Assembly: GCA_030613505.1 (NCBI GenBank)
Contig: JAUWLW010000063.1
Span: 1 to 13,272 of the forward strand
Reading direction: 5' to 3'
DNA from: Candidatus Zixiibacteriota bacterium
GTDB taxonomy: Bacteria; RBG-13-66-14; B26-G2; WVWN01
DNA: 13,272 nucleotides
Each line of letters opens with the position of its first letter. The stretch's first letter is position 1. The notes beneath the pieces were generated by a model. It saw only the letters and a list, made by a program, of their open reading frames with translations, was not told the DNA's origin and made no database searches. Below are positions 5,201-7,407 of this stretch, in pieces. A program made the translations under genes and the position numbers.

Positions 5201-6704
5201 CCTGGCTTATGGCCGGGATGACCATGTCGAGCTCGACGTCGTAGGTGTCGCCCTCGATGGGGACCGGGCGCCGGCGGCCGCTCTCGTCCGGTTCGCCCAG
5301 CTCCATCCGCTGGAGGCGCATGCCGACGACGCGGCCTTCTTTACCGAAGATATCGTCGGGCGCCGTCAACAGCTCGAGACCCACGCCCTCGCGCAGCGCC
5401 TCGTCGATTTCCAATTCGTCCGCCGGCATCTCCTTCCGCGTGCGGCGGTAGAAGATCGTAACGTCGGCGCCGAGGCGCTTGGCCGTCCGCGCGGCGTCAA
5501 CGGCGGCGTTGCCCCCTCCTATTACCGCGACCTTCTTCCCGACTCGAACTTCGCCTTTCTGGTTGAACTCCCGCAGGAACTCGACGGCGCCGACGACGCC
5601 TTCCAATTCCTCGCCCTCGCAGCGGAGCTTGAGGCTTTCGTGGGCGCCGACGCCGACGAAGGCCGCCTTGTAGCCGTCCTCGAGCAGGTCGTCGAGCGTG
5701 AAGGTCTTACCCAGTTCGGCGTTGTAGTGGAACCGGATGCCGAGCTTCTCCAGGAAGCCGACGTCGCGGTCCAGCACGTCGCGGGGGAGGCGGTAGGTCG
5801 GGATGCCGACGCGCAGCATGCCGCCGGCGAACGGCAGCGCCTCGAAGATGTGGACCTCGTAGCCGGCGAAGGCGAGGTCGTGGGAGCAGGTGAGGCCCGC
5901 GGGCCCCGCGCCGACGACGGCCACGCGCTCGGCCTTCTTCTCAATTTCGTAGTCGTCGACGTACGAGTACTCCGGCTCGTTGGCGACTTCCCAGTCGGCG
6001 GCGAAGCGCTTGAGCGCGCGGATGGATACCGCCGCGTCCACCTCGCCGCGGAGGCACTCCTCCTCGCAGGGGTGATGGCACACGCGGCCGCACACGCCGG
6101 GGAGCGGGTTCTGCTTGCGGATGAGCGCGAGGGCTTCTTTAAATTTGCCCTCGGCGATGAGGGCGACGTAGCCCTGCGCCGCCTGGTCGACGGGGCAGGC
6201 GCTGCGGCACGGCGCTTTGCCGCGCTTCGTGATGGCGAAGCAGTTGGGGATGGCCTGGGCGTACGGTCGGTAGATGGCGCGCCGCTGGACCAGGCCCACC
6301 TCGTACTCGTCCGGGTACTCCACCGGGCACACGGAGACGCAGTCGGTGCAGCCGGTGCAGGCGTCGAGGTCGACGTAGCGGGCGTGGCGCCGGACGTGGG
6401 CGGTGAAGTTGCCCGCCTCGCCCTCCAGCTTCTCGAGTTCGGCCAGCGTGAGAATTTCGACGTTCTCGTGGCGGCCGGCCTCGACCAGCTTGGGCGCCAG
6501 GATGCACATCGAGCAGTCGTTGGTGGGGAAGGTCTTGTCGAGCTGGGCCATCGTCCCGCCGATGGCGGCGCCCTTCTCGACGAGGTATACCTTGACGCCG
6601 GCGTTGGCCAGGTCGAGCGCGGCCTGGATGCCGGCGACGCCGCCGCCCACCACCATCGCCGCGCCTATGGCGTTACAAGGGGTTTCGGATGAGGTGTTAA
6701 CCAT
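2262..6704 (-). CDS. hdrA: Giant HdrA: tandem HdrA cores with inserted GltD-like NADPH module
   Basis: A 1480-residue flavin/iron-sulfur protein, more than twice the usual HdrA (~650). Core 1: FAD motif VVGGGVAG (18-25), ferredoxin motif C116/C119/C122/C126. A GltD/NfnL-like module is inserted at about 165-570: Cys-rich helical domain (C166, C170, C205, C209, C213, C217), FAD site VVGAGPAG (263-270), NADPH site VIGGGNAA (394-401) with YRRTRKEMPA (419-428), typical for the 2'-phosphate. Then come cysteines 632-648, CVGSRD (731-736) and YCSSVCC (743-749). Core 2 (about 931-1480) begins with the HdrA N-terminal domain (C937, C939, C971, C996), FAD site VVGGGAAG (1073-1080), CVGSRD (1221-1226), and two 4Fe-4S motifs at 1417-1427 and 1448-1458. 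Three FADs, NADPH and several clusters suggest electron bifurcation between NADPH, ferredoxin and the HdrB substrate. The ATG at 6704 overlaps the upstream stop (TAATG) and has GAGGA upstream. The role is inferred; the family is certain. Confidence 0.95.
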   Translation of the reverse strand: MVNTSSETPCNAIGAAMVVGGGVAGIQAALDLANAGVKVYLVEKGAAIGGTMAQLDKTFPTNDCSMCILAPKLVEAGRHENVEILTLAELEKLEGEAGNFTAHVRRHARYVDLDACTGCTDCVSVCPVEYPDEYEVGLVQRRAIYRPYAQAIPNCFAITKRGKAPCRSACPVDQAAQGYVALIAEGKFKEALALIRKQNPLPGVCGRVCHHPCEEECLRGEVDAAVSIRALKRFAADWEVANEPEYSYVDDYEIEKKAERVAVVGAGPAGLTCSHDLAFAGYEVHIFEALPFAGGMLRVGIPTYRLPRDVLDRDVGFLEKLGIRFHYNAELGKTFTLDDLLEDGYKAAFVGVGAHESLKLRCEGEELEGVVGAVEFLREFNQKGEVRVGKKVAVIGGGNAAVDAARTAKRLGADVTIFYRRTRKEMPADELEIDEALREGVGLELLTAPDDIFGKEGRVVGMRLQRMELGEPDESGRRRPVPIEGDTYDVELDMVIPAISQAPAIDHLDADEAICLTKWRTVEVDEKTGMTGRAGVFAGGDMVTGPGMVTEAMAQGRRAARGIIDYLNGGEYPVPEPSALPAVESKDVPKDEAAPTPRAEMAELPPAKREGNFDEVELGLTEEQAVAEAKRCLSCGLCSECLECVAACEPEAIRHFDVEKIEEIPVGAVVLAPGFEEFDAALKSEYGYGRLGDVVTSIEFERLLSASGPFGGHLQRQSDGAAPVKVAWLQCVGSRDTTVNRGYCSSVCCMYATKQAVIAREHDANVEPTIFFMDMRSFGKEFDRYIDRAESEYGVRFIRSRVDSVERENGKLVLKYEDEAGAFSREEFDLVVLSVGLTVDADTKAMLERLGLEVDKYDFVASPPFRPTDTSRAGVFAAGAVAGPKDIPESVTQASAAAARASATVAPARWTETTEASFPAERDIKGEPPRVGVFICHCGINIGGVVDVPAVVEYAETLPWVTYTERNLFTCSEDTQKLIAEKIDEHNLNRVVVASCTPRTHEPLFRETLRESGLNPYLFEMANIREHCSWVHMKQPAEATAKAKELVRMAVARAVNLTPLTDIELPVTQTALVVGGGAAGMTAALGLADQGFETYLVEKENELGGHLHHIKYLPGGAVVGPFLDEFVAKVKGHDKIKLFAGAKLKSVSGFVGNYVSVVEDKNGEHELEHGVVVVATGARMAEHDEFGYGSSDRVVSQRELEEALAAGKVPHDAASVVMIQCVGSRDDEHPYCSRVCCTEAVKNALKLKELEAEADVYVLYRDLRTYGEAEDLYREAREKGVFFARFDPENKPTVAPQGDKVKVKWYDIILGEDVEIEVGLVALAQGTWPDAQANKELAEMLKVPLTADGFFLEAHMKLRPVDFATEGVFVCGLAHNPKTIEESIAQAQAAAARAATILAKPTIKAEGRVAVVNERRCIACGTCERVCPYGAIEVNKEKMLAEVNAGLCKGCGSCAAACWSAAVDIAGITDEQLLDAITAL

Positions 6705-7066
6705 TATTCCTCGCCGCGGATGCGGATGCGAGCTTCCTCTACGATCCAGATTTCGCCGGCGGGGGGTTCTTTATCCAAACGCGGTATCAATCCTCGGACG
6801 TTATTAATAACGTAATCTTTATCTTGCTTCGCGTAGCGGAGGACTATTATACCGGCGTGGGTGCCCGGCGGGTATTCCCTTATATCAGCAAACGACAAGT
6901 CCAACGTGACTAAAATTAAACCCTCGGTCCGGCAAAACGAAAAAACCTCTGCGTCGGACTTTCCGCCCAACCCTTCCCCGATTACCGTTTCGGCGGCGTG
7001 CCCGGCGGCGATGAATAACGCCGTTAAGTCCGCGGGTAGGTTTTCGTCCAACTTCAAACGCGTCAA
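6704..7066 (-). CDS. DUF5615 PIN-like protein, putative toxin
   Basis: A 120-residue protein of the DUF5615 PIN-like type, the usual partner of DUF433 in toxin-antitoxin-type pairs and thought to be a ribonuclease. Visible motifs are LDENLP near the N-terminus (D7, E8), GGKSDAEV (D38) and LVTLDLSFADIREYPPG (D56, D61), followed by GIIVLR. Family members commonly read DxDF at the third motif; here it is DLSF, so one acidic residue is replaced by S58. It starts with TTG at 7066, behind GGGAG in the tail of the DUF433 gene, so the pair is coupled. Its stop overlaps the hdrA start by one base, and the hdrA ribosome site lies inside its last codons. Base composition is AT-richer than in the hdr genes, which suggests separate origin. 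No toxin activity can be shown from sequence. Confidence 0.85.
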   Translation of the reverse strand: MTRLKLDENLPADLTALFIAAGHAAETVIGEGLGGKSDAEVFSFCRTEGLILVTLDLSFADIREYPPGTHAGIIVLRYAKQDKDYVINNVRGLIPRLDKEPPAGEIWIVEEARIRIRGEE

Positions 7067-7069
7067 CTT

Positions 7070-7297
7070 TTAACTCCCTATCGGGACGGACCGTTCTTTC
7101 GCGAGTTCGGCGGCGTAAGCGACGGCCGCTTGTATATCCTCTCTCGTAAGGGACGGATAGCTTTTTATTATCTCTTCGGCCGTCAACGCCGCCGCAAGGT
7201 TATCGAGGATTACCGAAACCATAATCCGCGTCCCTTTGATGCACGCCTTTCCGTGGCATACGTCGGGGTTTACCGATATGCGCTCAAGCGCGTCCAT
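7070..7297 (-). CDS. DUF433 protein, putative antitoxin
   Basis: A 75-residue DUF433 protein. The signature is clear: [20 protein letters not shown] (6-25), then [37 protein letters not shown], a helix-turn-helix-like half. These proteins are the usual antitoxin partner of DUF5615, probably binding DNA and the toxin. The antitoxin comes first, as is common for such pairs. GAGGAGG sits 8 nt before the ATG at 7297, a strong site compared with the downstream TTG start. Only three bases separate its stop from the DUF5615 start codon. The pair sits between a hdrA 5' fragment and the complete hdrA. I see no clear promoter of its own in 7298-7410, so it may be transcribed from the hdr promoter. Confidence 0.87.
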
Positions 7298-7326
7298 ATT
7301 TTTACCTCCTCGCGTTTACAGCGTTC

Positions 7327-7407
7327 CTAAGCCACCGGATCGGCGACGCCGCCGCCCACCACCATCGCGGCCCCTACGACGCCTTTACATTTATTTTCGG
7401 AGGCCAT
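7327..7407 (-). pseudogene. hdrA 5'-end remnant (22 codons of homology)
   Basis: Read on the minus strand from the ATG at 7407, this gives MASENKCKGVVGAAMVVGGG followed by VADPVA and a TAG. The complete hdrA begins MVNTSSETPCNAIGAAMVVG and continues GGVAGIQ, so the first FAD motif is shared in the same frame. A perfect 28-nt match links 7341-7368 with 6632-6659; homology fades on both sides. After GVA the remnant leaves the HdrA sequence and stops within five codons. It is therefore a truncated second 5' end of a hdrA gene, not a working enzyme. The differing first 11 codons argue for a divergent hdrA source rather than a fresh duplication. A leader-peptide role for the 26-residue product is possible but unsupported; no clear ribosome site precedes it. 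Confidence 0.8.

Follow-up and report, generated by a model that had tools for sequence, protein, structure and literature searches.

A sub-kilobase, recombinase-free insertion carrying a predicted toxin-antitoxin pair replaces the 5' end of hdrA

Introduction

How can a pair of toxin-antitoxin (TA) genes come to lie inside a core operon and leave the adjoining gene intact? The question is raised by contig JAUWLW010000063.1, a stretch of 13,272 nucleotides (nt) that was analysed at its full length (the window) and belongs to a Coatesbacteria genome, G000. The operon hdrC-hdrB-hdrA runs on the minus strand of the window, as do all of the window features described below, and between hdrB and hdrA sit a DUF433 gene and a DUF5615 gene, predicted to encode an antitoxin and its toxin. 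The beginning of hdrA is found on both sides of this pair. The comparisons presented here identify the module as a recombinase-free, gene-end-replacing insertion of less than one kilobase, one of two in the genome and of a kind that recurs around TA genes. The genus is sampled by four genomes, all compared as metagenome-assembled genome (MAG) assemblies: G000 and its congeners G001, G002 (CP070633) and G003 (WVWN01). A wider contig search for relatives returned only two known congeners and one distant match.

Layout of the insertion

In minus-strand order the region consists of hdrB, an AIG2-like open reading frame (ORF), a remnant ORF, DUF433, DUF5615 and hdrA. The remnant (7327..7407) is a 26-codon ORF, MASENKCKGVVGAAMVVGGGVADPVA closed by a stop codon, and agrees in position and length with the starts of hdrA in G002 and G003. 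It is followed by the gene for the predicted DUF433 antitoxin (7070..7297; COG2442, 75 amino acids, Pfam E 4.9e-25, PDB entry 2GA1 at E 3.4e-6) and by that for the predicted PIN-like DUF5615 toxin (6704..7066; 120 amino acids, TTG start, Pfam E 3e-18). The complete hdrA (2262..6704) encodes 1480 amino acids with an internal GltD-like NAD(P)H oxidoreductase domain and starts with MVNTSSETPCNAIGAAMVVGGGVAG. Its first codons, MVNTSSETPCNAIGA (6660..6704), were brought by the insert; they differ from the native-type starts, yet are homologous to them.

The two hdrA beginnings are joined by a direct repeat, one copy of which forms the end of the remnant (7341..7368) while the other lies inside the complete hdrA (6632..6659). 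The match is exact over 28 nt and reaches 90% over 41 nt, with a spacing of 709 nt and a single reading frame for both copies; a chance origin was ruled out. When the flanks are fused at the repeat, an intact, in-frame hdrA starting with MASENKCKGVVGAAMVVGGGVAGIQAALDL results. Both of these points, the exact repeat at the equal position of hdrA and the intact recombination product, had been put forward in the original prediction, and both are borne out. The layout described there is also correct, except that it overlooked the AIG2-like gene lying in the same hdrB-hdrA gap.

Without one repeat copy the inserted segment spans 6660..7340 (681 nt, or 709 nt with the copy) and holds a leader, DUF433, DUF5615 and the new hdrA start codons. 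G002 and G003 lack it; G001 has it with identical junctions. Its GC content is 54% (0.536), compared with 66-68% for hdrA and hdrB. No recombinase gene occurs in the 709-nt insert, whose contents are limited to the pair and the new hdrA start, and no terminal inverted repeats were found at either of its ends.

The repeat encodes the N-terminal flavin adenine dinucleotide (FAD)-binding motif of HdrA, and hdrA copies elsewhere in the genus match it at 26-28 of 30 nt. Judging from these copies, the perfect 28-nt identity appears mostly to reflect conservation of the motif, so the match requires no recombinase site. The repeat is instead a stretch in which hdrA alleles are similar enough for recombination. 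As a candidate, an extension of the remnant past the repeat as decayed hdrA was rejected, no similarity being found there.

Native and imported hdrA starts

Which of the two beginnings belongs to the recipient can be read from the congeners. In G002 and G003 the pair is missing and hdrB is followed, after about 40 nt, by hdrA. The hdrA starts of these genomes, MVEKDTCNDVVGAAM and MAKKEKRNYVVGAVM, are of the remnant type and place 12 codons ahead of the AAM motif. The remnants of G000 (MASENKCKGVVGAAM) and G001 (MANGKKCNDVVGAAM) have the same length as these native starts, and the present starts of the two genomes (MVNTSSETPCNAIGAAM and MVNTSSKTPCNVIGAAM) are two codons longer. In the part preceding the motif, the remnants are 65-72% identical to the native starts and the new starts 53-57%; the new starts are still homologous to the native ones when compared with shuffled sequences (DNA p < 0.001, protein p 0.007). 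Because the G002 and G003 starts are remnant-type and the new starts are homologous but divergent, the alignments identify the remnant as the recipient's own hdrA end and the functional start as a diverged, homologous allele that arrived with the pair.

G001 shares the insertion, which lies at the corresponding hdrB-hdrA junction there. Because the junction sequence is the same, the insertion either predates the split of G000 and G001 or was shared between the two lineages. Recent horizontal transfer of the complete insert between the two is not supported, since the four-fold divergence of the pair (22/83) is no lower than that of other genes.

These comparisons bear on most of what the original prediction had proposed. 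It had looked to relatives for a MASENKCK-type hdrA directly after hdrB and no pair, which is the arrangement in G002 and G003; it had held that the insert came with an hdrA start of its own, which agrees with a start that is divergent but homologous; and it had named tandem full-length hdrA genes in relatives as contrary evidence, of which none occur at this junction. Its interpretation as a whole is retained, apart from the weight given to the perfect repeat, which motif conservation partly explains, and its restriction to hdrA, since other genes and other TA families are involved as well.

A second insertion in the genome

G000 has just one more DUF433/DUF5615 pair. Located on contig C10 (locus L091), it is 38-39% identical to the pair at hdrA and has a similar setting: a remnant, MNSSRETCNKGFFFFVDGLGIGRR with its stop codon, is followed by the pair and then by a gene starting with MSRGERDKRILFFFVDGLGIG (MSRGERDKRILFFFVDGLGIGPADGD). 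The target is an FFVDGLGIG motif that is unrelated to the FAD motif of hdrA. The pair is missing from this site in G001 and G003, and the empty site of G001 resolves the junctions to the nucleotide: its alignment runs through the upstream repeat copy, breaks off there and picks up again where the downstream copy begins, with an overlap of exactly 31 nt (about 35 nt for the flanks of G003). Since colinear flanks of the empty site overlap by the repeat, no DNA was deleted at C10. As at hdrA, the remnant is closer to the native starts (65-76% identity) than the new start (51-62%), which is itself homologous to them (p 0.0002).

Recurrence around toxin-antitoxin loci

Similar duplications occur well beyond this genus. 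Among DUF433/DUF5615 pairs from many bacterial families, 69 were usable, and in 17 of these a bracketing direct repeat scored above all 150 cross-locus comparisons. When one geometry was applied to all loci, bracketing repeats were found at 5/23 ParE, 5/25 HicA and 6/25 DUF5615 loci, and at none of the 25 TA-free hdrA/hdrB loci. Taking the three families together, 16 of 70 TA loci are bracketed by repeats as opposed to 5 of 140 neighbouring positions (odds ratio 8, Fisher p 2.9e-5). A mechanism specific to DUF433 is thereby ruled out, ParE and HicA loci being bracketed as often. The repeats at other TA loci range from about 20 to more than 100 nt in length.

By inspection, about a dozen of these repeats are ends of the genes next to the TA module with a remnant on its far side; the gene names that follow are the authors' reading of the sequences and not database assignments. 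For DUF433/DUF5615 the duplicated ends are those of hdrA, the C10 gene and the targets at L116, L160 and L135. For ParE they are the 5' ends of a Nudix-like gene (L197) and a pseudouridine-synthase-like gene (L200) and a 3' end at L191, and for HicA the 3' ends at L205, L225 and L232. Within the same genus, a ParE gene at L234 is adjoined by the duplicated 5' end of a signal-peptide gene. In G003, contig C11 (L240, 3457-4324), a 3' gene end (AAFRE..REVK.GM, then stop) occurs three times around HicA, an arrangement that looks as if two modules had been inserted successively at one gene end.

In three species, direct repeats flank 10-18% of small variable segments (PMC2884548). The pattern may therefore belong to small inserts generally.

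Some bracketed loci are of other kinds. At L241 (3046-4503; G003, contig C30) an interspersed repeat, AAGGCCACACAGGAATGTGCGGCCCAC, is present in many copies around ParE and HicA genes. At L211, HicA lies between repeats of a tRNA 3' end (1334-1356 and 2020-2042; GGTTCAATTCCCGCTGGGGCTA), which is an ordinary attachment-site signature.

A proposed mechanism and its alternatives

What kind of event would leave such a product? In the explanation proposed here, to which we give about an even chance, a donor fragment containing the TA pair and an hdrA 5' end was integrated additively through a circle and a single crossover. A short fragment from a related lineage would have carried the DUF433/DUF5615 pair and the adjoining 5' end of the donor's hdrA, and its ends would have been joined into a circle. 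A single RecA-type crossover within the conserved hdrA 5' motif common to both, at about codons 12-22, would then yield the order recipient hdrA start (the remnant, whose end marks the closure point of the circle), pair, and donor start fused to the recipient hdrA. In this way hdrA would be kept intact, the pair would join the hdrCBA operon, and the two repeat copies could later recombine with each other and so delete it. The second pair of the genome and the gene-end duplications at other TA modules would have arisen by the same reaction. In Escherichia coli, linear DNA with one homologous end is circularised and integrated by a RecA-dependent single crossover, with part of the target duplicated in 56 of 60 clones (Amarir-Bouhram et al., PMC3240628). 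An insertion without loss, a duplicated homologous end and a diverged replacement end are the product expected of a single crossover between a circle and the chromosome.

Several observations weigh against this explanation or limit its reach. About 30 nt of homology is close to the minimum for a RecA-type crossover. The mechanism has as its base two well-resolved cases with empty relatives, and neither a circular nor an excised form was seen. A donor genome, with the pair beside an MVNTSS-type hdrA and no remnant, was not found in the four-genome genus sample. Finally, the repeats at L113, L171, L096, L110 and L241 are intergenic or interspersed and do not fit a model of duplicated gene ends.

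Homology-facilitated illegitimate recombination is the alternative with most to recommend it, although it is considered improbable. It would place a homologous joint downstream in hdrA and an illegitimate joint at codon 22 of the recipient, so that the remnant is the cut end of a displaced gene and part of the downstream hdrA is donor DNA. The mechanism is a known one, has been proposed for the effector-immunity modules of the Vibrio type VI secretion system (T6SS), behind which displaced effector ends remain (PMC5361080), and agrees with the unusually low G000/G001 divergence of the hdrA 5' region; at the hdrA site, replacement of a short recipient stretch may have occurred. However, illegitimate recombination of this kind usually removes roughly the amount of DNA that it adds (PMC3240628), and the C10 site shows no deletion. 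In both resolved cases, moreover, the cut lies within about 30 nt of the point at which the two starts converge, which illegitimate recombination would have to ascribe to coincidence. Less probable still is a tandem duplication of hdrA, or of its 5' end, around the pair, with the first copy then deleted to a scar. Such a history would likewise yield a remnant, a pair and a full gene, and the remnant does keep only 22 hdrA codons. The two starts, however, differ by 40-45% ahead of a motif that is nearly identical, and it is the functional start that is further from the native starts, where a duplicated and then decaying copy predicts the opposite. In addition, no relative has a tandem hdrA pair here and an unrelated second gene, at C10, presents the same pattern.

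Two further explanations were weighed. In site-specific integration, a recombinase acting in trans would use the 5' motif of the gene as its attachment site and the insert would carry a replacement 5' end, as with SXT/R391 at prfC or Rac at ttcA. The architecture matches, with a repeat core inside a gene end and the replacement end in the insert, and the tRNA repeats around HicA at L211 are of the ordinary attachment type. Such integration is nevertheless judged quite unlikely, given an insert of two small genes without a recombinase and target motifs as unrelated as the FAD motif of hdrA and FFVDGLGIG, with further 5' or 3' ends used at other TA loci. Similarly little credence is given to an insertion with a target-site duplication of about 30 nt, in which the new start codons are insert sequence with a chance in-frame start. 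The repeats of 28 and 31 nt at the two resolved sites would suit it, but the new and native starts remain homologous past the repeat, in the direction of the ATG, the repeats at other TA loci vary from about 20 to more than 100 nt with the homology of the gene, and the insert ends lack the terminal inverted repeats of a transposon.

A broader generalization of the single-crossover explanation is more tentative. TA modules might spread as recombinase-free cassettes that use the end of a neighbouring gene as a homology address, enter by a single crossover, restore the gene end and leave by recombination between the copies; this is possible, though doubtful.

Relation to known systems

SXT/R391, at prfC, is an integrative element of the gene-end-replacing type. 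Prophages such as Rac at the ttcA 5' end and the prophage at icd likewise insert within a gene end, supply a replacement and leave the native remnant beyond the element (PMC6379469). Compared with these prophages and integrative and conjugative elements, the insert described here is only 0.7 kb long, has two small genes and no integrase, and shares its genome with a second insert at an unrelated target. The E. coli integration of circularised DNA resembles it in duplicating the homologous part of the target on both sides with no deletion, but involved a laboratory plasmid and duplications of 109-950 bp; here the event is natural and the homologous end is diverged and about 30-100 nt long (PMC3240628). 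In T6SS effector-immunity arrays of Vibrio cholerae, a small module also enters through homology of a conserved part and displaced gene ends remain (PMC5361080). There, the module swaps the variable end of its own target, whereas here a housekeeping gene with no relation to the cargo is entered and regains its function. For chromosomal TA integration in E. coli, alteration of the coding ends of neighbours has been described, with relBE shortening hokD; in the account available to us, truncation is described and a replacement with a remnant is not stated (Ramisetty and Santhosh 2016, via PMC6379469).

Duplicated, diverged gene ends that bracket a pair offer a testable route by which type II TA modules could move without a transposase or integrase, and the bracketing signature could be used to locate the alleles of donors and recipients. 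By this route TA pairs could be embedded in core operons such as hdrCBA, which serves electron transfer, without breakage, and the N-termini of housekeeping proteins would be changed in the process. If TA modules do spread as such cassettes, loss of the pair would be tied to a recombination that must spare the core gene, because the pair lies between operon genes.

The DUF433/DUF5615 pair

DUF433 is one of the COG2442 antitoxins of the PIN-COG2442 pairs (PMC2701414), which include vapBC10 of Synechocystis (PMC3834315). The pair at hdrA resembles these in its gene order, with DUF433 immediately ahead of a gene for a small putative nuclease, and in the patchy distribution of a mobile module (PMC2701414, PMC3834315). 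It differs in having DUF5615, without a classical PIN domain and with an activity that is predicted, as the toxin, and in its location inside a metabolic operon. The DUF433-DUF5615 arrangement is held by 68 of the 71 loci examined.

The acidic residues D7, D38 and D56 of DUF5615 are nearly invariant among 31 homologues, and the modelled structure is a small Rossmann-like alpha/beta protein (predicted local distance difference test score, pLDDT, 91). Fold and structure comparison gave no significant match for DUF5615 and Pfam PIN_10 stayed under its cut-off; the label "PIN-like" thus comes from family annotation alone. Comparison of G000 with G001 shows purifying selection on both genes, with nonsynonymous divergence (dN) of 0.05-0.06, synonymous divergence (dS) of 0.26-0.27 and dN/dS of about 0.2. 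From its family assignments, the pair is predicted to be a type II TA system. It is present in two of the four congeners, and DUF5615 in 53 of 193 genomes. Searches of the insert DNA against plasmids and of the toxin protein against phages gave no match, and no DUF433 relatives were confirmed in viral contigs.

Within the operon, the stop codon of DUF5615 overlaps the ATG of hdrA (TAATG) and the GAGGA that precedes this ATG falls within the final codons of DUF5615. Because of this overlap and the position of GAGGA, translation of hdrA is probably coupled to that of the pair. A promoter scan of the hdrB-hdrA interval found no promoter-like site, and an Rfam search of the window found no RNA family.

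The remnant itself may have acquired a second use. Codons 10-27 differ between G000 and G001 by four changes, all synonymous, and the next 30 nt by one, while 15-22 changes would be expected over these 84 nt at the local neutral rate (P 0.0015 to 1e-6; these are small counts from two species). Because the later codons are conserved and their changes only synonymous, the remnant may be translated and perhaps acts as a leader of the pair. Gene conversion by hdrA could account for the motif part of the remnant, not for its DPVA-stop tail. In the original prediction a remnant conserved as a translated leader was to speak against the insertion; such conservation is indeed seen, but a sequence that arose as a remnant can afterwards be put to another use.

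The hdrB-hdrA junction and neighbouring genes

Upstream of the junction, hdrB (7885..8769; Pfam CCG, E 1.6e-26) has orthologues in all four congeners. The gene content next to it varies. G000 has the accessory AIG2-like gene (7415..7834; gamma-glutamyl cyclotransferase-like, 139 amino acids, Pfam AIG2_2 at E 7e-15), G001 has an unrelated DUF6883/DUF4926 pair (L035, 5145-5721), and G002 and G003 have no accessory gene. Four-fold divergence between G000 and G001 is 0.14-0.19 for hdrA and two nearby genes and about 0.29 for hdrC and hdrB (window 7885-9245 against L035), and it rises to 0.57 over the final 55 codons of hdrB, as high as the divergence from the other species. This pattern suggests that hdrC-hdrB is a recombined tract. 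Because of the jump in divergence and the differing accessory genes, the junction looks like a spot of repeated exchange whose downstream edge is at the hdrA 5' motif, as estimated from divergence.

Some minor observations concern hdrA itself. In G002 the gene reaches a gap of 100 N (L036, about 4630-4740), past which the sequence does not match the rest of hdrA, likely a MAG scaffolding problem. The GltD-like domain of the window's hdrA (2262-6704) occupies residues 160-600, approximately, and in G003 (L039, 4482-9983) separate nuoE- and nuoF-like genes stand in its place and split hdrA; by domain content, the difference reads as a swap of electron-input modules. Several hdrA paralogues of G000 (contig C19, 5793-6245 and 11206-11670, locus L041) and of its congeners have a single in-frame TGA in a conserved N-terminal region, which possibly encodes selenocysteine.

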